A stretch of DNA of 64,000 bases from Paracidovorax avenae (lineage in GTDB: Bacteria; Pseudomonadota; Gammaproteobacteria; Burkholderiales; Burkholderiaceae_C). The notes beneath the pieces are model-generated. The model saw only the letters and a program-made list of their open reading frames with translations. It did not search any database and was not told where the DNA came from. Shown one piece after another: positions 45,609 through 53,631 of the stretch (position 1 is its first letter; the number at the start of each line of letters is the position of its first letter). A program made the position numbers and the translations under genes. The stretch spans positions 620,001-684,000 of the forward strand of contig NZ_CP156079.1 in NCBI RefSeq assembly GCF_040892545.1, read 5' to 3'.

Positions 45609-46457
45609 TTATTTGAAAATCACCGTCTTGTGGCCGTTGAGCAGCACCCGGTGCTCGGTGTGCCACTTCACGGCGCGGGCCAGGACCTGGCTTTCGGTGT
45701 CGCGGCCGCGGGCCGTCAGGTCTTCCACGGTGTCGGTGTGGTCGGCGCGGGCCACGTCCTGCTCGATGATCGGGCCTTCGTCCAGGTCGGCGGTCACGTA
45801 GTGGGCGGTGGCGCCGATGAGCTTCACGCCGCGGTCGTGTGCCTGGTAGTAGGGCTTGGCGCCCTTGAAGCTGGGCAGGAAGCTGTGGTGGATGTTGATG
45901 GCCCGGCCTTCCAGCTTGCGGCACAGGTCGTCCGACAGCACCTGCATGTAGCGGGCCAGCACGACCAGCTCGGCGCCTTCCTGCTGGATGATCTCGTACT
46001 GGCGCGCCTCGGCCTGGGGCTTGTTGTCCTTCGTGACCGGAATGTGGTGGAAGGGCACGTTGTAGCTGGCCGCCAGTTGGTAGAAGTCGCGGTGGTTGCT
46101 GATGATGGCGCAGATGTGCACCGGCAGCAGCCCGGACTTCCAGCGGAACAGCAGGTCGTTGAGGCAGTGGCCTTCGCGGCTGACCATGATGGCGGTCTTC
46201 ATGGGCTCGCTGGCGGCGTGCAGGCTCCAGTGCATGCGGTGCGGCTCGGCGAACTCGGTGAGGCGGGCGCGCAACGCGGCCTGGTCGTGGGTGTCGCAGG
46301 CGAAGCGCACGCGCATGAAGAACAGGCCGGTGGCGTGGTCGTTGTACTGGGCGGCTTCCTCGATGTTGCCCCCATGCTCGAGCAGAAATCCGGAGACCGC
46401 ATGCACCAGCCCGAGCTTGTCCGGGCAGGAGAGGGTGAGAATATAGGCTTGGGTCAT
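45609..46457 (-). CDS. purU: Formyltetrahydrofolate deformylase
   Basis: A 282-residue enzyme that hydrolyses 10-formyl-THF to formate and THF, balancing one-carbon pools. The N-terminal ACT domain (AYILTLSCPDKLGLVHAVSG) is followed by the formyltransferase domain with NHRDFYQLAASYNVPFHHIP, the catalytic INIHHSFLPSFKGAKPYYQA (Asn-His) and the Asp in DLDEGPIIEQD. Length and all motifs are normal for PurU. Confidence 0.96.
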   Translation of the reverse strand: MTQAYILTLSCPDKLGLVHAVSGFLLEHGGNIEEAAQYNDHATGLFFMRVRFACDTHDQAALRARLTEFAEPHRMHWSLHAASEPMKTAIMVSREGHCLNDLLFRWKSGLLPVHICAIISNHRDFYQLAASYNVPFHHIPVTKDNKPQAEARQYEIIQQEGAELVVLARYMQVLSDDLCRKLEGRAINIHHSFLPSFKGAKPYYQAHDRGVKLIGATAHYVTADLDEGPIIEQDVARADHTDTVEDLTARGRDTESQVLARAVKWHTEHRVLLNGHKTVIFK

Positions 46458-46508
46458 AGCGGGGCGATTGTCGCAGCACGGCCCGCAGCAACGCGGAGCA
46501 AGGAATTG

Positions 46509-48482
46509 ATGCATGAGGAGGAGGGGGGCGTCCCCCGCAACGCTCCCGGGGGGATGGCAGGCTGGTGGGTACCCGCCGCCCTGCTTCTGTACGCTGCCGC
46601 CGGGCTGGCCTGGGTGGCCGGCGCGGAGGCGCTTTTGCCGGCCGGCAGTGTGCTGCGCGCGGTGTTGCAGGCGGCCTTCGTGCTGGCGCCGGCGGGCTGT
46701 GGCGTGTGGGCGCTGCGGCGCTGGCGCGCGCGCGGCCGGGAGATCGCGGTGCTGGCCCGTGGTGCCGTGCAGGCCGACGAGCGCCAGCGGCTCGCGGCCA
46801 CGGTGGTGGACAACGCGGCCGAGGGCATGGTGGTGACCGACGCCGAGAGCCGCATCCTCTCGGTGAATGCGGCCTTCACGCGGCTCATGGGGTACGGCGA
46901 GGCGGAACTGCTGGGCCGCACGCCGCGGATGTTCAAGTCGGGTCGCCACGGGCGTTCGTTCTACGAGGCCATGTGGGAAGAGCTGGGCCGCACCGGGCAC
47001 TGGCAGGGCGAAATCTGGAACCGCCGCAAGAACGGCGAGGTGTTCCCCGAGCGCATGTCGCTCTCCAGCGTGCGCAACGCGCGCGGCGAGGTGACGCACT
47101 ACGTGTGCCTGTTCACCGACATTTCCCAGGAGCACGAGCAGCGGCGCCGGCTGGAGGTGATGGCCCATACCGACCCGCTCACGGGACTGCCCAACCGCAC
47201 GTTCTTCGCGCAGCAGCTCGAGGAGGCGATGGCGGACGCGCGCGCCCGCGGCGAGCCGCTGGCGGTGCTGCTGGTCAACCTGGACCGGTTCAAGGATGTG
47301 AACGACAGCTACGGCCACGCGGTGGGCGACCAGGTGCTGCGCCACATCGCCGCGCGCGTGCAGGAGGCGCTGCGGCCGGGCGACCTCGCGGGGCGCCTGG
47401 CGGGCGACGAGATCGGCGTGATCGCCCGCCGCGTGGACGGGGCGCAGGGCGCGGTGGCGGCCGCCCGGGCCCTGCTGGCCGCCCTGGCCGAGCCCTGGCG
47501 CTCGCCCGACGGCTTCGAGGTGGTGGCCTCGGCCAGCGTGGGCATCTGCCTTTTCCCGGACCATGGCGATACCGCCGATGCGCTGCTGCAAGGCGCCCAT
47601 GCGGCGGTGTACGGCGCGCGCGAGCACGGGCAGGGCGCATGGCATTTCTTCGACGAGAGCCTGACCCAGGCCGCGCGCGAGCGCCTCGCCCTGGAAGCGC
47701 GGCTGCGCTCGGCGCTGGCCCAGGGGCACCTGCAGCTGCACTACCAGCCGCAGGTGGACATCGCCTCCGGGCGCATCGTGGGCGCGGAGGCGCTGGTGCG
47801 CTGGATCGACCCGGTGGAGGGGACCATCGCGCCCGACCGATTCATCCCGGTGGCCGAGCGCACGGGCATGATCGGCCCGCTGGGCGTCTGGGTGATGCAG
47901 GAGGCCTGCCGCCAGGCCCAGGGCTGGCGCGAGGCGGGGCTGCCCGAGGTGACGATGGCGGTGAACGTCTCCCCGCGCCAGTTCCACCTGACCGACCTGG
48001 CCGGCTGCGCGGCCCTCGCGCTGGCGGATTCCGGCCTGCCGTCCACGCTGTTGGAACTCGAACTGACCGAGGGCGCGCTGGCGGAGCGCCCCGAAGAGGC
48101 GCGCCAGGTGCTGCTGCGGCTGCGCGGCCTGGGACTGCGGCTGGCGATCGACGATTTCGGCACGGGCTACTCGTCGCTGGCGCACCTCAAGCGCTTCCCG
48201 ATCGATGTGCTGAAGATCGACAAGGGGTTCATCCGCGACCTGCCGCAGAGCGCGGACGACATGGCGATCTGCGCGGCCATCATCGCGATGGGGCACAGCC
48301 TGGGCCTGGCGGTGCTGGCCGAGGGGGTGGAGACGCCGGAGCAGCTGGCGTTCCTGCGCAGCCGCGGCTGCGACCGCTACCAGGGCTACCTGTGCCGCCG
48401 GCCGGTGCCCGCGGCGGAGTTCGCGGCCCTGCTGGCGCAGCAGGCCGCGGGAGTTGACGCGCCTTTGCCGGCCCAGCCATAA
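46509..48482 (+). CDS. Membrane PAS-GGDEF-EAL protein, probable c-di-GMP phosphodiesterase
   Basis: A 657-residue signalling protein. Two membrane segments lie at about residues 15-65, then a PAS domain (about 95-210; DNAAEGMVVTDAESRILSVN), a GGDEF domain (about 220-385) and an EAL domain (about 400-650). The GGDEF site is altered to AGDEI (about residue 298), so cyclase activity is doubtful. The EAL domain keeps its residues: EALVRW, NVSPRQF, ELTEG, IDDFGTGYSS, KIDKGF, AEGVET and YQGYL. It therefore probably degrades c-di-GMP, with the GGDEF part possibly sensing GTP. AGGAA precedes the ATG. Confidence 0.88.
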   Translation: MHEEEGGVPRNAPGGMAGWWVPAALLLYAAAGLAWVAGAEALLPAGSVLRAVLQAAFVLAPAGCGVWALRRWRARGREIAVLARGAVQADERQRLAATVVDNAAEGMVVTDAESRILSVNAAFTRLMGYGEAELLGRTPRMFKSGRHGRSFYEAMWEELGRTGHWQGEIWNRRKNGEVFPERMSLSSVRNARGEVTHYVCLFTDISQEHEQRRRLEVMAHTDPLTGLPNRTFFAQQLEEAMADARARGEPLAVLLVNLDRFKDVNDSYGHAVGDQVLRHIAARVQEALRPGDLAGRLAGDEIGVIARRVDGAQGAVAAARALLAALAEPWRSPDGFEVVASASVGICLFPDHGDTADALLQGAHAAVYGAREHGQGAWHFFDESLTQAARERLALEARLRSALAQGHLQLHYQPQVDIASGRIVGAEALVRWIDPVEGTIAPDRFIPVAERTGMIGPLGVWVMQEACRQAQGWREAGLPEVTMAVNVSPRQFHLTDLAGCAALALADSGLPSTLLELELTEGALAERPEEARQVLLRLRGLGLRLAIDDFGTGYSSLAHLKRFPIDVLKIDKGFIRDLPQSADDMAICAAIIAMGHSLGLAVLAEGVETPEQLAFLRSRGCDRYQGYLCRRPVPAAEFAALLAQQAAGVDAPLPAQP

Positions 48483-48483
48483 T
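48454..48483 (+). promoter_or_regulatory. Promoter of the mgtC leader region
   Basis: TTGACG (48454-48459) and CATAAT (48478-48483) are spaced by 18 bp, and the CATAAT overlaps the stop codon of the preceding gene. It would start a transcript with about 155 nt before the first small ORF and about 795 nt before mgtC. Confidence 0.65.
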
Positions 48484-48644
48484 CCGCCCGCTTTTTCCGC
48501 GGGCCGCGCGGGCGTCCCTGCCCGTGCCGAAGACGCCGCGGAAGCGGCGCGGCAGGACTGCCGCCTTCCGGCCCCTGCCGGCTTCTTCCCGCACCTCCCG
48601 TGCGGGCCCATCCACCGGAGCGCGCGAGCGCGGGAGAGAACGCC
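48484..48644 (+). promoter_or_regulatory. Structured 5' leader upstream of the proline-rich ORF
   Basis: This GC-rich stretch contains several inverted repeats, the clearest being CCCGCAC / GTGCGGG with a 5-base loop (48588-48606), plus GCCGC / GCGGC repeats near 48531-48553. No known riboswitch consensus is recognisable by eye. It ends in GGGAGAGA, a ribosome-binding site for the ORF at 48645. Confidence 0.45.
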
Positions 48645-48776
48645 ATGGACCCCTACCCTAGACGGCCCTCCCCTGCCATGACCCCGGTGTGCCCGATGGC
48701 CGCCCACTTCCCCCGCATTTCCCTTGCCGCATCCGGCGCGCGCCCGGACGCCGCCTGCCGTCCGCCCCGCCGCTGA
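48645..48776 (+). CDS. Proline-rich leader ORF (43 codons), MgtL-like in character
   Basis: The frame starts MDPYPRRPSP and has 9 prolines in 43 codons, four of them in the first ten. GGGAGAGA lies 6 nt before the ATG. Enteric mgtL, the leader of the magnesium transporter gene mgtA, starts MEPDPTPLPRRR; acidic-residue/proline runs there destabilise the ribosome at low magnesium and so raise expression of the downstream gene. The match of residue pattern, place before an mgtC gene and leader length support a similar role. High GC content raises the chance frequency of Pro codons, so this needs comparative support. Confidence 0.5.
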   Translation: MDPYPRRPSPAMTPVCPMAAHFPRISLAASGARPDAACRPPRR

Positions 48777-48784
48777 CGGCATGG

Positions 48785-48817
48785 AGGCTTCCCGCGCGTC
48801 TCGCGCGGCTGGAGCCT
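48785..48817 (+). promoter_or_regulatory. Hairpin covering the ribosome-binding site of the MgtE_N-like gene
   Basis: An upper stem CCGCGCG / CGCGCGG with a TCT loop and a lower stem AGGCT / AGCCT form one hairpin. The GGAG that would serve the ATG at 48822 is partly in the lower stem, so folding could block translation. It lies directly after the stop of the proline-rich ORF. Confidence 0.5.
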
Positions 48818-48821
48818 TCGC

Positions 48822-49193
48822 ATGTTCTTCTTCCGTTCCTTTCTTCCCGCTTCCTCCCTGAGGGACGAGGTGGTCGCCCTGGTGCTGCGCGACGCGCTCG
48901 CCCGCCGCCGCCCGCAGGCGCTGTGCGGCCTGCTGCAGAGCCACGGACGCGGCGCCGTGGCGGCCTGCCTGTCCCGCGAGCCGGGCGCGGTGATCGCCGA
49001 TGCGCTGTCCATGCTGCCCGCGGACCAGCGCCGCGCGGTCTTCCTGCGCCTGAGCCGGCCCGCGCGCGAGCGGGCCGAGCGCATCGGCGGCCGGGCTTTC
49101 GACGCTTTCGGGCCTTCCGGCCCGGCGGGTGCCTGGCGCCGCGCGCGGGCCTGGGTGGCCCGCCGCTGCCGGCGTTCCGGCAGGGCGGCCTGA
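48822..49193 (+). CDS. Small protein resembling a lone MgtE N-domain
   Basis: A 123-residue soluble protein with a hydrophobic start (MFFFRSFLPASSLRDEVVAL), helical repeats and a basic tail (RRARAWVARRCRRSGRAA). The stretch ADALSMLPADQRRAVFLRL resembles the repeat of the MgtE N-domain, the cytoplasmic part of MgtE magnesium channels that senses magnesium. No channel domain follows. Its stop overlaps the start of the next small ORF (TGATG). A role in magnesium sensing with mgtC is inference; the similarity is weak and read by eye. Confidence 0.5.
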   Translation: MFFFRSFLPASSLRDEVVALVLRDALARRRPQALCGLLQSHGRGAVAACLSREPGAVIADALSMLPADQRRAVFLRLSRPARERAERIGGRAFDAFGPSGPAGAWRRARAWVARRCRRSGRAA

Positions 49194-49255
49194 TGCGGCC
49201 CCGCCGCGGTCGCCCGCCCGTCTTCCGCTTCTTCCCGTTTCTTTTCGCAACCTGA
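49193..49255 (+). CDS. Second small ORF (20 codons) before mgtC
   Basis: The peptide is MRPRRGRPPVFRFFPFLFAT. It starts at a TGATG overlap with the stop of the preceding gene and ends 31 nt before the mgtC ATG. Pro, Arg and Phe make up most of it. It could be a second leader peptide, by analogy with the Salmonella mgtC leader that carries two short ORFs, or a relay ORF, or chance. Confidence 0.35.
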   Translation: MRPRRGRPPVFRFFPFLFAT

Positions 49256-49286
49256 CCGACCGGCCCCGCCGCATCCGGACCGCACC

Positions 49287-50003
49287 ATGCAATTCCTCCG
49301 CCATTTCCACCTGTTTCCCTTCCTCGACACCCTGGTCAGCCTGCTCACCGCCTTCGGGCTGGGTGCGGCGATCGGGCTGGAGCGGCAGATCCGCCAGCGG
49401 ACGGCAGGGCTGCGCACCAACACGCTCGTGGCCGTAGGGGCCGCGGCGTTCGTGGTGCTGGCCGACCGGCTCGAGGGGCCTTCCGGCGCGGTGCGCGTGA
49501 TCGCCTACGTGGTGTCGGGCGTGGGCTTCCTGGGCGCGGGGGCGATCATGAAGGAGGGCGCGAACATCACCGGGCTCAACACGGCGGCGACGCTCTGGGG
49601 CTCCGCGGCCGTCGGCGCCTGCGCGGGATCGCACCTCGTGGCCGAGGCGGTGCTGGCCGCACTGTTCGTGCTGGCGAGCAACACGCTGCTGCGCCCCGTG
49701 GCCAACCGCATCAACCGGCGCCCGGTGCAGGAAGCCACGAGCGAGGCCATCTACACCGTCTATGTGCTGTGCGAACGCGGCGTCCACGGCGAGGTGCGCG
49801 AGCGCATGGTGGAGCTGCTGGAGGGGGCGAACTACCCGGTGCGCGGCGTGGGCCAGCATGCCTTCGGGCGCACCGAGACCGAGATCGAGGCCACGCTCTA
49901 CGCCACGGCGGTGGAGGCCGACGAACTGGATGCCGTGATGCGTGCGATCGAGGCCCTGCCGGGCGTGCTGCAGGCGTTCTGGAACGCCGGCTCGGAGGAA
50001 TAG
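49287..50003 (+). CDS. mgtC: MgtC/SapB family membrane protein
   Basis: A 238-residue inner-membrane protein. The MgtC membrane domain covers residues 10-140: LTAFGLGAAIGLERQIRQR with the family Arg, TAGLRTNTLVAVGAAAFVVL, GVGFLGAGAIMKEGANITGL and NTAATLWGSAAVGACAG. A C-terminal ACT-like domain (about 155-235) is present, as in Salmonella MgtC. MgtC proteins help bacteria grow at low magnesium and inside host cells, in Salmonella by inhibiting the F1Fo ATP synthase. The long leader upstream suggests post-initiation control. Confidence 0.92.
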   Translation: MQFLRHFHLFPFLDTLVSLLTAFGLGAAIGLERQIRQRTAGLRTNTLVAVGAAAFVVLADRLEGPSGAVRVIAYVVSGVGFLGAGAIMKEGANITGLNTAATLWGSAAVGACAGSHLVAEAVLAALFVLASNTLLRPVANRINRRPVQEATSEAIYTVYVLCERGVHGEVRERMVELLEGANYPVRGVGQHAFGRTETEIEATLYATAVEADELDAVMRAIEALPGVLQAFWNAGSEE

Positions 50004-50039
50004 GCCCGCGGGCGATGGGCGCCCGGGCGCCTCATCGCC

Positions 50040-50852
50040 TTATCTCTTGAGTGCGGCGCAATGGTCCGTGGGTGGCAGGGGAGCGGTGGGCAGGACCGTA
50101 TCGGCGGCGTCCCCGGGCAGCGGATCGGTGGCGGATTGCGCCTGCGCGATCGCGATGCGGGCCTGCACGCCCGCGTCCCAGTGCAGCGGCACGCCGAGGT
50201 CGCGGCGCGCGTGGCCCGCGCCCGTGACCAGCAGCACCGTCTGCCCCGGCCGTCGCGCGCCGGCTGCCGTCCGCGCCAGGCTGTCGTCGCGCGCGATCTG
50301 GATGCGGGCCATGCCGGGCAGCTGCGACGCGGGCAGCAGGCCGCAGTGGCCGGCCTCCATCGCCTCGACCTGCCGGCGCAGCACAGGTGCCGGCACGCGG
50401 CCGTCCCAGGCCGTATCCTGCATGGCCTCGCGCATCCGCGCGCGGGGCAGGTTGCCGCCGAGCACCGGAACGCCGGCACGCACGGCCTCCATCACCACCG
50501 GGCCGTAGTGCGCCCAGGGCCAGGCCGCATCGTTCCATGCGAGCGCTTCACGCACGGCGGATTCGGTGGCATCGCGGGGCAGGCCGGCCGTGCCGTGGCC
50601 GGCCTCGGCCATCTCGATCACCAGCGCCGCCAGTTGCCCGCGGCCTGCCAGCGAGGCGACGGCCTCGCGCTCCAGCCGCTGGTGGTCGGGCGCGTCGTGC
50701 TGCTCGCCCAGGAGCAGGATGTCGGCGGGCAGCAGCGCCTGCCAGGGATCGCTGCCGGCAGGCGGGGAGGGCGGGGCGGGGCTGGCGCACGCCGCGGCCA
50801 GGACCAGCAGGGCCAGGGAGGCGGCGCGCCGCAAGCGGATGGGCAGGTGCAT
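50040..50852 (-). CDS. ChaN-family haem-binding-like lipoprotein
   Basis: A 270-residue lipoprotein (signal MHLPIRLRRAASLALLVL, lipobox AAAC with Cys near residue 22). The body has the ChaN domain: DILLLGEQHDAPDHQRLERE near residue 43, LVIEMAEAG, ALAWNDAAWPWAHYGPVVM and the late VLLVTGAGHARRDLGVPL with its His. Campylobacter ChaN binds haem through such histidines; the role elsewhere is unclear. It converges on mgtC and diverges from narX across an FNR-like box. Confidence 0.8.
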   Translation of the reverse strand: MHLPIRLRRAASLALLVLAAACASPAPPSPPAGSDPWQALLPADILLLGEQHDAPDHQRLEREAVASLAGRGQLAALVIEMAEAGHGTAGLPRDATESAVREALAWNDAAWPWAHYGPVVMEAVRAGVPVLGGNLPRARMREAMQDTAWDGRVPAPVLRRQVEAMEAGHCGLLPASQLPGMARIQIARDDSLARTAAGARRPGQTVLLVTGAGHARRDLGVPLHWDAGVQARIAIAQAQSATDPLPGDAADTVLPTAPLPPTDHCAALKR

Positions 50853-50900
50853 GGCCGGCACCTTAACCCATCGCGGCGGACGGCCCGGAAGGTCTCTGGC

Positions 50901-50914
50901 TTGACTTGCATCAA
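50901..50914. promoter_or_regulatory. FNR/ANR-type box between chaN-like gene and narX
   Basis: TTGACTTGCATCAA matches the FNR consensus TTGAT-N4-ATCAA at nine of ten positions. Oxygen-responsive control fits the nitrate locus. It lies only 11 bp before the first narX ATG, so if it activates narX the transcript start would fall near the second ATG at 50950. Confidence 0.65.
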
Positions 50915-50925
50915 GGGTTGCGGCC

Positions 50926-52860
50926 ATGCCCGTTCCTACACTGCCGGCCATGCGCAGGCCCCTTACCCTGACCACCCGGCTGCTCGCCATCGGCAGCGGC
51001 TTTCTTGCCGTCGCCCTGCTGTCCGTCGCCTTCACGCTGTGGATCACCTGGAAGCTCGAAGGCGGCGCCGCGGCCGTGAACGAGGCGGGCCGCCTGCGCA
51101 TGGCGATGATGCGCATGGCGCTGGCCGGGCGGGCCGAGGCCCCGGAGGCGCTGGCGCCGCTGTCCGGCCGGTTCGATGCCGGCCTGGACCTGCTGCGCCA
51201 GGGGGACCCCGCCCGGCCCCTGTCCGTGCCCTGGAACGAAGACACGCGGGCACGCTTCGCCCGCATCGTGGAAGACTGGGGCCGGCTGCGCGACGGCCGC
51301 GCCGCGCCGGACGTCGCCCGGGCGGATGCCTTCGTGGCGCGCGTGGACGGCTTCGTGGAGGCGATCGAGCGCCAGATGGCGCGGTGGACCGCGGCGCTGC
51401 ACCTGTTCCAGCTGGCGATGATGGCCGTGGCGATCGCTGCGGCGGTGGCCTTCATGGCCGTGAGCCACTGGCTGGTGCTCGCGCCGGTCGCGCGGCTGCA
51501 GCAGGCCCTGGCCCGCATGCGGCAGGGCAACCTGCGCACGCGGCTGCCGGTGGAGTCGCAGGACGAGTTCGGCCAGCTCGCCACGGGTTTCAACCTGATG
51601 GCGCACGCACTGCAGTCGTCCCACCAGGACCTGGAGCGCAAGGTGGCCGAGAAGACCTCGCGCCTGGAAGAGCGCAACGCGCGGCTGGCGGCGCTCTACG
51701 AGGTGAGCGCCCAGGTCTCCGGGGCCGGCAGCCTGGACGCACTGGCGCGCGGCTTCGTGCAGCGGGTGCGCGAGATCGCGCGGGCGGACGCCGCCGCCAT
51801 GCGCTGGTCGGACGAGGCCAACGAGCGCTACATGCTGCTGGCCGGTGACGGGCTCCCCGAAAGCCTGGTGCAGGGCGAGCACTGCCTGCCCACCGGCAAC
51901 TGCCATTGCGGCCAGCCGGAGGGCGCCGCGCGCCTGCGCGTCATCCCGATTCTTCCCGGTGCAACGGCCGGCATGCCGCACTGTGGCGAGGCCGGCTACC
52001 AGACCCTGGTGCTGGTGCCGGTGCGCACGCAGCAGCGCGTGCTGGGCGAGGTGGACCTGTTCTTCCGCTCGGCGACCGAGATCGAGCCCGGCATGCAGGA
52101 AATGCTGGAGGCCATGGCGAGCCATCTCGCGACGGCGATGGAGGGACTGCGTGCCACCGCGCTTGATCGCGAGGCCGCCGTGGCGCAGGAGCGCTCCTTC
52201 ATCGCGCGGGAGCTGCACGACTCCATCGCGCAGTCGCTGGCCTTCCTGAAGATCCAGACGCAGCTGCTGCGCGACGCGGTGGGCCGGGGCGACGATGCGG
52301 CGCGCGACCGCAGCATGGGCGAGCTGGACGTGGGCGTGCGCGGCTGCTATGCCGACGTGCGCGAACTGCTGCTGCATTTCCGCACCCGCACCAGCGAGGA
52401 AGACATCGAGGGCGCGCTGCGCGCCACGCTGTCCAAGTTCGGGCACCAGACCGGCATCGCGCACGGGCTGTCGATGGCCGGCCACGGGCTGCCGCTCGCG
52501 CCCGATGTGCAGGTGCAGGTACTGCACATGGTGCAGGAGGCGCTGTCCAACGTGCGCAAGCACTCGGGCGCACGCCGGGTGGAGGTGCGCGTGCAGCGCG
52601 AGCCGCACTGGCGCTTCGAGGTGGAGGACGACGGCCGCGGGTTCGACGCGGCCTCCGTGCCGCCCGACTCCGTGCACGTGGGCCTGGGCATCATGCGCGA
52701 GCGGGCGGAGCGCGTGGGCGCGCAGGTCAGCATCGAGGCGGCACCCGGGCGCGGCACGCGGGTGCGCATCGACCTCCCGGCGGCCGGGGAGCCCGGCGCC
52801 GACGACGCCGCCGCGACGGCGAGCTTCTCCATTTCCGATTTCGCGCCGCTCGCGTCCTGA
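50926..52860 (+). CDS. narX: Nitrate/nitrite sensor histidine kinase NarX
   Basis: A 644-residue sensor kinase. The periplasmic sensor between two membrane segments (about 17-42 and 160-185) contains the nitrate-binding P-box AAVNEAGRLRMAMMRMAL (about 50-67). A HAMP region and the NarX central module follow, with its cysteine cluster (HCLPTGNCHCG and PHCGEAGY, about 320-345). The HPK7-type H-box RSFIARELHDSIAQSLAFL has its phospho-His near 431, and the ATPase domain has VEDDGRGFD and GLGIMRERAERVGA. It phosphorylates the adjacent NarL. A second ATG at 50950 may be the true start. Confidence 0.95.
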   Translation: MPVPTLPAMRRPLTLTTRLLAIGSGFLAVALLSVAFTLWITWKLEGGAAAVNEAGRLRMAMMRMALAGRAEAPEALAPLSGRFDAGLDLLRQGDPARPLSVPWNEDTRARFARIVEDWGRLRDGRAAPDVARADAFVARVDGFVEAIERQMARWTAALHLFQLAMMAVAIAAAVAFMAVSHWLVLAPVARLQQALARMRQGNLRTRLPVESQDEFGQLATGFNLMAHALQSSHQDLERKVAEKTSRLEERNARLAALYEVSAQVSGAGSLDALARGFVQRVREIARADAAAMRWSDEANERYMLLAGDGLPESLVQGEHCLPTGNCHCGQPEGAARLRVIPILPGATAGMPHCGEAGYQTLVLVPVRTQQRVLGEVDLFFRSATEIEPGMQEMLEAMASHLATAMEGLRATALDREAAVAQERSFIARELHDSIAQSLAFLKIQTQLLRDAVGRGDDAARDRSMGELDVGVRGCYADVRELLLHFRTRTSEEDIEGALRATLSKFGHQTGIAHGLSMAGHGLPLAPDVQVQVLHMVQEALSNVRKHSGARRVEVRVQREPHWRFEVEDDGRGFDAASVPPDSVHVGLGIMRERAERVGAQVSIEAAPGRGTRVRIDLPAAGEPGADDAAATASFSISDFAPLAS

Positions 52861-52872
52861 GCACCACGTTCC

Positions 52873-53631
52873 ATGGCTTCCGACCCCCTGCCGCCCCGCA
52901 GCCCCTCCCTGGCGCCGGACGCCGCGCCCCTGCGGGTGTTCGTGGTGGACGACCATACGCTCTTCCGGCGTGGCCTGATCGCCCTGCTGTCGCAGTACCC
53001 GTCGCTGCGCGTGGTGGGGGAGGCCGGCGATGCCGGCGAGGCCCTGCGGCTGGCACCGCCGCTCGCGCCGCAGGTATTGCTGCTGGACAACCACCTGCCG
53101 GGGGTGCGCGGCATTGACGCCATCCGCGGCCTGCGCGAGGCCATGCCGGGCGTGCGGGTGCTGATGCTGACGGTGAGCGAGGATGGCGAGGATCTCGCCC
53201 AGGCGCTGCGCCAGGGGGCCCAGGGCTACCTGCTCAAGACCATCGAAGGCGACCTGCTGGCCGATGCCATCGGCCGGGCCGCGCGGGGCGAGCCGGTGGT
53301 GAGCATGGAGCTGATGGGCAAGCTCGTGGCGGCCTTCCAGGCGCAGGGCGGCCCGTCCGCGGTGCCGGCGCGCGGGCCGGAGGTCGCCGGCGGAGCCGCC
53401 ATCGTGTGCGAACCGGAGGACGCGGCTCCCGGCGGCGCATCCCCGCTGTCGCCGCGCGAGGAGGATGTACTGCGCGAGATCGCGCGCGGCGCGAGCAACA
53501 AGGAAATCGCCCGTGCGCTCGACATCGCCGAGACCACGGTGAAGATCCACGTGCAGCACATCCTGCGCAAGCTGGGGCTGAGTTCGCGCGTGCAGGCGGC
53601 GGTTTATGCGTCGGAGCGCCAGCGCGAGTAG
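52873..53631 (+). CDS. narL: Nitrate/nitrite response regulator NarL
   Basis: A 252-residue response regulator, 12 bp after narX. The receiver domain (about 20-140) has VVDDHTLFRRG, the phospho-acceptor Asp72 in VLLLDNHLPGVRG and GYLLKTIEGDLL. A Gly/Pro/Ala linker of about 35 residues leads to the LuxR-type helix-turn-helix (about 190-250: LSPREEDVLREIARGASNKE, then IARALDIAETTVKIHVQHIL). It should activate narK and narG in nitrate. Its 3' end overlaps that of the convergent MFS gene by 28 bp. Confidence 0.95.
   Translation: MASDPLPPRSPSLAPDAAPLRVFVVDDHTLFRRGLIALLSQYPSLRVVGEAGDAGEALRLAPPLAPQVLLLDNHLPGVRGIDAIRGLREAMPGVRVLMLTVSEDGEDLAQALRQGAQGYLLKTIEGDLLADAIGRAARGEPVVSMELMGKLVAAFQAQGGPSAVPARGPEVAGGAAIVCEPEDAAPGGASPLSPREEDVLREIARGASNKEIARALDIAETTVKIHVQHILRKLGLSSRVQAAVYASERQRE

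Follow-up and report, generated by a model that had tools for sequence, protein, structure and literature searches.

A conserved acidic/proline leader ORF ahead of Mg2+ genes in Paracidovorax avenae and its bacterial family as a probable Mg2+-responsive attenuator

The window analyzed here is a 64,000-nucleotide stretch of the genome of Paracidovorax avenae, a plant-associated bacterium (contig NZ_CP156079.1, positions 620,001 to 684,000). On its forward strand, upstream of an mgtC gene, lies a 43-codon open reading frame (ORF) that begins MDPYPRRPSP and reads MDPYPRRPSPAMTPVCPMAAHFPRISLAASGARPDAACRPPRR in full (positions 48645-48776); a small ORF of 123 amino acids (aa) stands between the two. 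We consider that the 43-codon ORF is probably a regulatory leader peptide of a low-Mg2+ operon, which would attenuate expression through a hairpin hiding the ribosome-binding site (RBS) of the next gene. By computation we find a conserved leader, its association with Mg2+ genes, the hiding hairpin and, in many loci, an alternative pairing that would open it. The logic is most likely the one described for Salmonella mgtQ, used by analogy in a leader family that is built differently.

Results

Occurrence of the leader ORF in related genomes

The same 43-codon ORF is present in three close relatives, all Paracidovorax (L031-L033); the frameshifts or lost start codons that a preliminary description of the window had named as evidence against a leader were found in none of them. 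An Acidovorax metagenome-assembled genome (L034) carries a 39-codon version, MDPAPIRPSP. At the same place stand MDPDPARPRP in Delftia sp. PS-11 and MDPDPSRSCC in each of three Comamonas records, followed in both genera by a relative of the small gene and then by mgtC.

To collect loci, we searched with a 13-row profile (A1) of the small protein. In 399 genomes of the family, 29 matched and 25 loci were used, down to E=4.6e-8; searches at the genus level (53 genomes, 35 matched; 6 genomes, 5 matched) contributed 28 further loci, for a total of 53. Left out were the weak matches L145-L148 (E 1.2e-5 and weaker), L149-L152 and nine matches without a locus, and loci from an earlier search that the profile did not find again were not used. 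A short upstream ORF beginning (M/V)(D/E)(P/S)xP, mostly MDPDP, is present in 44 of the 53 loci, all of the same bacterial family. When an RBS was required, the leader was found upstream of the small gene in 43 of 52 loci (L208 left out), against 0/52 on the opposite strand of the same region, 0/52 on either strand of the downstream region and 0.00/52 in shuffled sequences; a control region further upstream gave 2/52 on the forward and 0/52 on the reverse strand. Without the RBS requirement, the upstream control region gave 3 (forward) and 4 (reverse) of 52, and the shuffles 0.50/52. The loci in these counts are related and do not represent independent events. Because 43 of 52 loci stand against controls near zero, the leader ORF is not a product of chance.

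A DNA pattern for M(D/E)PxPx(R/S) matched six times in the P. avenae genome itself, and only the leader in the window precedes a Mg2+ gene. The other five were rejected as Mg2+ leaders: L115 begins a protein of several hundred residues, L118 and L119 are apparently, as judged by eye, parts of glycine-rich proteins, and the stretches that hold the short ORFs L116 and L117 contain no reference transporter.

Magnesium genes downstream of the leader

Leaders were also searched with the motif-plus-RBS pattern AGGA-N4-10-ATGGANCCNGANCC, which is blind to the downstream genes and which E. coli mgtL itself does not fit. It matched 23 times in 299 genomes of the family; 20 matches are short leaders, and L164, L166 and L170 were rejected as starts of longer proteins. 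Within the fetched stretch, 17 of the 20 precede mgtA (9), mgtE (4), mgtC (2) or Nramp (2); two more stand before an RND adaptor, and one before the small gene without a transporter. Six of the 20 were already known through the small protein. Among the 44 leader loci collected with the small protein, the downstream gene is mgtA in 17, mgtC in 12, mgtE in 2 and Nramp in 2 (33 in all), and an RND adaptor in 5. Downstream genes were assigned by tblastn with reference proteins that had themselves been checked by Pfam or NCBIfam. A control with the reversed pattern was dropped, as its composition differed and it gave, by eye, more matches than the pattern itself; the genes downstream of the matches took its place.

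Operons coding for a CzcB-like adaptor and an RND pump likewise begin with the leader (L213-L216). When these four were read further, L214 and L215 continued into mgtA and L216 into mgtC, which links the RND pump with Mg2+ genes; L213 showed none of the reference genes within its 8-kb stretch.

A scan of 250 genomes of the order gave six matches, of which two were known loci of the family and the other four (L176-L179) had no reference transporter downstream. A scan of 205 genomes of the class gave four matches and no Mg2+ leader: two start proteins of 504 and 224 aa, and the other two, 61 and 6 codons long, have no reference transporter nearby. With these two patterns the leader was found in one family only; other variants of the motif or the RBS would escape them. 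L179, from a different family of the order, is a 16-codon MDPDP ORF, MDPDPCSSGSAAARQS, with an RBS; an Nramp gene, 77% identical to the reference, lies on the same strand about 0.4 kb upstream of it.

Layout of the locus in the window

The features of the locus are as follows; regions 2 and 3 and hairpin 3:4 are predictions from RNA folding.

48454-48483, forward strand: sigma-70-like promoter match TTGACG-N18-CATAAT, present in four relatives too
48632-48636, forward strand: RBS of the leader ORF, GGGAG
48645-48776, forward strand: leader ORF, ATG start, 43 codons, MDPYPRRPSPAM...
48648-48659, forward strand: leader codons 2-5, D-P-Y-P, the version of the MDPDP motif in the window
48726-48765, forward strand: region 2, the tail of the leader, predicted to form a helix with region 3 that spans the stop codon (coordinates taken from a folding of L126, the locus in the window; 2/200 codon shuffles as good)
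48772-48809, forward strand: region 3, the predicted right arm of 2:3, including the 5' anti-RBS arm that hairpin 3:4 uses too
48778-48826, forward strand: predicted hairpin 3:4 (z -3.7), in which the next gene would have both its RBS (GGAG, 48811-48814) and its start codon hidden
48822-49193, forward strand: small ORF of 123 aa; its family is similar to part of either the N domain of MgtE or the middle domain of FliG
49287-50003, forward strand: mgtC, with MgtC and MgtC_SapB_C domains (Pfam MgtC E=1.5e-34)

The promoter match proposed in the preliminary description holds up: it fits 10 of 12 consensus positions, one such site was found against a mean of 0.1 in shuffles, and it is kept in all four relatives examined (L031-L034), in L034 as TTGACT-N18-GATAAT. 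It falls within the 3'-terminal part of the preceding ORF, which stops at 48482. A leader of about 155 nucleotides (nt) from the likely transcript start, the RBS and the 43-codon ORF were likewise all where they had been placed. That the leader stands ahead of mgtC is correct in that mgtC lies downstream; the first gene, however, is the 123-aa ORF, which begins 45 nt after the leader stop, with mgtC 93 nt behind its end. The range originally proposed for the element (48454-48776) includes the ORF, but the key structure lies at and after the leader stop, up to about 48826, and thus partly beyond it. The MgtC of the window is 100% identical, over the whole match, to MgtC of Paracidovorax cattleyae and P. 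oryzae.

Mg2+ riboswitches, among them the M-box, control Mg2+ genes from the 5' leader. Positions 46000-53000 gave no Rfam match at the gathering score, and neither of two sub-threshold matches lies in the leader, so we rejected a riboswitch; attenuation by an intrinsic terminator was rejected because no terminator-like site was found between the promoter and mgtC.

RNA structures around the leader stop codon

Of the 39 loci in which the next RBS was found, 31 have a linker of 41-50 nt between the leader stop and the following start codon. The linker forms, in most loci, a hairpin that carries the RBS of the next gene in its 3' arm. Compared with dinucleotide shuffles, the folding energy of the linkers has a mean z of -2.9 and falls below -1 in 35 of 38 distinct linkers, those of L128, L129 and L144 being the rest; the linker of the window has a z of -3.7, and its RBS is computed to be 2% unpaired. 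The tests of linker energy and RBS exposure leave out L183, L185, L190, L193 and L194, where the script found no next RBS, and the energy test leaves out one duplicate in addition.

With the RBS forced open, 18 loci selected for strong effects or for kinship with the window were folded again; in the best fold of most of them, the final codons of the leader pair, past the stop codon, with the 5' arm. In a shuffle test on 57 loci, the real leader tail (pairing 2:3) beat 95% of codon-shuffled tails in 25, where about 3 would be expected, with a mean z of -1.8; in the window, 2/200 shuffles equalled it. The 57 comprise the 39 loci above, four of the five without a found RBS (L185 is absent), L034 and 13 of the 14 leaders found by pattern (without L174), duplicates removed. 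When the leader RNA was left free from codon 11, at most 5/100 shuffled leaders exposed the RBS as much in 17 of 39 loci (about 2 expected; median rank 7); mean RBS exposure with the leader partly freed was 0.28, and the absolute rise was often small.

In an alignment of twelve loci, the covariation score and the number of doubly changed cells of both mutually exclusive helices exceed all 500 shuffles and all slides. The score is 0.312 for 3:4 (shuffled 0.197, best slide 0.223) and 0.410 for 2:3 (shuffled 0.263, best slide 0.211); the helices were read from one of the twelve sequences and are therefore favoured in the comparison with slides. RNAalifold gave no useful consensus on a MAFFT alignment of the Comamonas mgtC group, and in a group of five mgtA loci it returned only the 3:4 hairpin and one short second stem. 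By prediction, then, the RBS of the next gene lies in a stem that would compete with a leader-tail stem, as in an mgtQ-type attenuator.

Conservation and codon usage of the leader peptide

Codon 4 of 60 distinct leaders encodes Asp in 46, Ala in 4, Tyr in 4, Val in 2, Glu in 2 and Gly in 2. This codon had been left free in the search behind the 44 loci, and the 14 leaders known from the pattern alone had Asp or Glu there by construction. Proline stands at codon 3 in 59/60 and at codon 5 in 60/60, partly through search selection; codons 2, 3 and 5 belonged to the search motif and are therefore no proof of conservation by themselves. Codon 6 is Ser in 31 leaders and codon 7 Arg in 33. The first residues occur as DPDP, EPDP, EPGP, DPAP, DPYP, DPVP and DSDP, and the length of the leaders in the family ranges from 16 to 58 codons.

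Pairwise comparison within four groups of close relatives found codons 2-9 free of non-synonymous differences, with at most three synonymous ones per pair, whereas from codon 10 to the end the non-synonymous differences outnumber the synonymous in nearly every pair. The window differs from each of three relatives in that part by 0-2 synonymous and 3-6 non-synonymous codons. The start of the peptide, roughly its first nine codons, therefore looks conserved as peptide and the tail looks free to change. The expectation of the preliminary description, conserved DP/P codons with a bias to synonymous change, is borne out for that start and not for the rest.

Codons 5-8 of the leaders are often rare, as compared with the longest downstream ORFs: CCT at codon 5 in 34/60 (12% of Pro codons in those ORFs), AGT in 21 of 31 Ser at codon 6 (3%), CGA in 22 of 33 Arg at codon 7 (7%) and TCT in 21 of 22 Ser at codon 8 (5%). 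The rare codons cluster directly after the acidic/proline motif, in the window at 48657-48668 with CCT AGA; E. coli mgtL also carries CCT, CGA, CGG and AGA.

The small MgtE_N-like protein

The family of the small protein is diverse, with 24% mean column identity. By sequence profiles it is weakly similar both to the N domain of MgtE and to the middle domain of FliG (PDB profile matches: MgtE E=6e-4, FliG E=2e-3). Of 37 members, 25 match the MgtE N domain (PF03448) at E<=0.1; L141 reaches 25.9 bits, just at the gathering score of 25.9, L142 scores 25.5, L140 25.1 and the other members scored are lower, and the 123-aa protein of the window itself has no match to PF03448. We would guess from these profiles that the small protein might act as an MgtE_N-like sensor or gate for Mg2+.

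Other ORFs near the leader

In L160 and L163, the place of the small gene between the leader and Nramp, directly after the RBS hairpin, is taken by an ORF of 44-45 codons whose C-terminus is alike in the two loci. A larger ORF of 227-258 aa lies between the leader and mgtA in L162 (1650-2330), L165 (598-1371), L172 (597-1337) and L173, and between the leader and mgtE in L154 (1663-2427); AGGH(H/Y)..DDAA is common to four of these five, and in a Pfam scan of L154, L162, L165 and L172 only L172 gave a match, a weak one to Phenol_MetA_deg (E=0.008). Directly upstream of the leader, several loci (L035:1421-1855, L109) have a small ORF ending D.(R/Q/K)T.WPTHRIR.FL, which in L104 (901-1128), a locus without the leader, stands upstream of the small gene; the two such ORFs tested had no Pfam match. 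In L144 and L161, the leader and small gene have no adjoining Mg2+ transporter and stand upstream of ORFs that resemble, by eye, thioredoxin and Rho.

Discussion

Proposed mechanism

We propose that the N-terminal acidic/proline codons, MDPDP in most leaders and MDPYP in the window, would make a young elongating ribosome prone to drop off when cytosolic Mg2+ is low. With ample Mg2+, ribosomes would reach the leader stop and cover region 2, such that the RBS of the small gene stays hidden in hairpin 3:4 and the operon is off. At low Mg2+, an early abort at MDPxP would leave region 2 free to pair with region 3 across the stop codon, and the released RBS would allow the small MgtE_N-like gene, and thereby the genes behind it, to be made. 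Low Mg2+ would turn the operon on and high Mg2+ off, and the sign of this control therefore suits Mg2+ importers. We infer in this scheme that the leader is translated, that ribosomes drop off in a Mg2+-sensitive manner, that control runs in this direction and that the effect passes to mgtC; in several mgtA loci the transporter begins just 16-18 nt after the small gene.

Comparison with known leaders

In Salmonella mgtQ, acidic codons destabilise the ribosome and shift stem 3:4, in which the mgtB RBS is hidden, to stem 2:3, in which it is free (PMC8092293). Our leader would have the corresponding parts, arranged alike: first the acidic/proline start, then the leader tail (region 2), the anti-RBS arm (region 3) and the RBS (region 4). 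Both systems have acidic codons, which would destabilise the ribosome here too, and in both, by prediction in our case, stem-loops 2:3 and 3:4 exclude each other and the RBS lies in 3:4. Unlike the leader in the window, which precedes the first gene, mgtQ has 8 codons and lies inside an operon, in the mgtC-mgtB intergenic region; it also has a further stem 1:2, a stem not systematically looked for in the family here.

With the MgtL of E. coli and Salmonella the family shares a short ORF with an RBS in the 5' leader of a Mg2+ gene and predicted alternative RNA folds. EPDP is the destabilising motif of E. coli MgtL, at which ribosomes fall off at low Mg2+ (PMC11282234), and the start MEPDP of the K-12 peptide is like the MDPDP of most leaders here, many of which likewise precede mgtA. 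E. coli MgtL has 17 codons against 16-58 in this family, and nothing is shared past the first codons, as judged by eye on sequences too short for a proper test of descent; codon 4 in the window is Tyr. The family leader, moreover, often stands before the small MgtE_N-like gene, and its predicted effect is to hide an RBS, where MgtL steers Rho. The preliminary description of an MgtL-like, separately built leader stands as to the conserved start, the RBS, the MDPxP motif and the several Mg2+ transporter families, but the output predicted from the folds is translational, unlike the Rho-dependent termination of mgtL.

The Salmonella mgtCBR leader also has leader ORFs, mgtP and mgtM, ahead of mgtC. 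Unlike our leader, mgtP has 17 codons with three consecutive prolines at codons 10-12, and mgtM is part of an ATP-sensing attenuator; both act on transcription. The last codons of mgtP are part of an alternative stem (PMC3641672).

A leader of this build in this bacterial family was not found in the open literature, a scope that covers few of the subscription papers; as related leaders, that literature showed the enteric mgtL, mgtP, mgtM, mgtQ and corA work, beside a Thioalkalivibrio candidate and two papers on upstream ORFs. Of these two, one (PMC9426467) is said to concern a copper-responsive upstream ORF and the other (PMC12810186) an upstream ORF of the M. tuberculosis M-box; a 2017 study reportedly gave ribosome destabilisation its name. 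The Thioalkalivibrio case is a candidate mgtE riboswitch (PMC11109978).

Alternative explanations and contrary evidence

That the ORF is there by chance and resembles MgtL by accident is very improbable indeed: the lack of conservation past codon 9 would fit it, but the near-zero search controls and the association with Mg2+ genes contradict it. We regard plain translational coupling as quite unlikely. Here, ribosomes finishing the leader would melt 3:4 and pass to the small gene, such that full translation means operon on, and both the prevailing 41-50 nt between stop and start and a hairpin that begins within reach of a terminating ribosome are consistent with it. Coupling leaves the alternative pairing 2:3 and the conserved MDPDP start unexplained, however, and the Mg2+ importers would go off when ribosomes abort in low Mg2+; when the first 12 nt of the linker were removed in the model, mean RBS exposure rose only from 0.19 to 0.22.

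The leader might instead sense the supply of proline, charged proline tRNA or EF-P activity, and not Mg2+ directly. The near-invariant prolines at codons 3 and 5, in part a product of the search, two leaders that start MDPVPP and the response of Salmonella mgtP to proline (PMC3641672) point that way; an acidic codon 4 (48/60) would be needless for it, and this explanation seems to us unlikely. Control of transcription, in which abortive or full translation of the leader would uncover or mask a Rho site, with the hairpins serving just for fine adjustment, has a precedent in mgtL, which acts through Rho (PMC11282234), would reach mgtC directly, and agrees with the lack of an intrinsic-terminator-like site between the promoter and mgtC; in most loci, though, the conserved element coincides with the RBS of the following gene, and we take such control to be rather improbable.

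Several results weigh against an attenuator driven by Mg2+-dependent ribosome drop-off. The leader is missing in 9 of the 53 loci (L120, L121, L130, L132, L133, L139, L197, L199 and L200), and 6 of the 44 leader loci have none of the five searched gene types nearby. Codon 4 lacks an acidic residue in 12 of 60 distinct leaders, among them the DPYP of the window, with one acidic residue fewer than DPDP. Pairing 2:3 misses the 5% level in 32 of 57 loci; in 16 of the 57, at least 20% of shuffled tails pair as well, and in L034, the nearest different relative, 83/200 shuffles equal it. Freeing the leader in the window raises computed RBS exposure only from 0.02 to 0.03, with 11/100 shuffles as good; leaving all of the leader and 120 nt upstream of it free gives a mean over the loci of 0.21, little more than the 0.19 of the linker by itself. 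Compensating changes in the hairpins, which the preliminary description had called for, appear in the covariation score of the twelve loci, but two of the five pairing measures do not clearly exceed shuffles there: pairs changed on both sides are matched by 29 and 108 of 500 shuffles, and further pair types by 426 and 249. In a Delftia-like group covariation is not above shuffles, with too little variation to tell. Finally, the hairpin spans only the RBS of the small gene, and mgtC starts 93 nt past that gene.

Significance

More tentatively, the Mg2+ regulon of one Burkholderiales family might be run by a mobile cassette of two parts, independent in origin of the enteric leaders: an MDPDP leader, in which the ribosome would sense Mg2+ through the RBS-hiding attenuator, and a stand-alone MgtE_N-like protein that may sense or gate Mg2+ for the transporter that follows, be it MgtA, MgtC, MgtE, Nramp or an RND pump operon. 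The leader family would also mark the small protein and some RND pump operons as likely parts of Mg2+ homeostasis, and the natural variants (DPDP through DSDP) offer material for finding out which residues matter. Ribosome destabilisation as a sensor of Mg2+ is so far known from a few enteric leaders. If our proposal is true, a second, separately built family, spread over at least four transporter families and found in another order, would make the acidic/proline start a more general device for sensing Mg2+.

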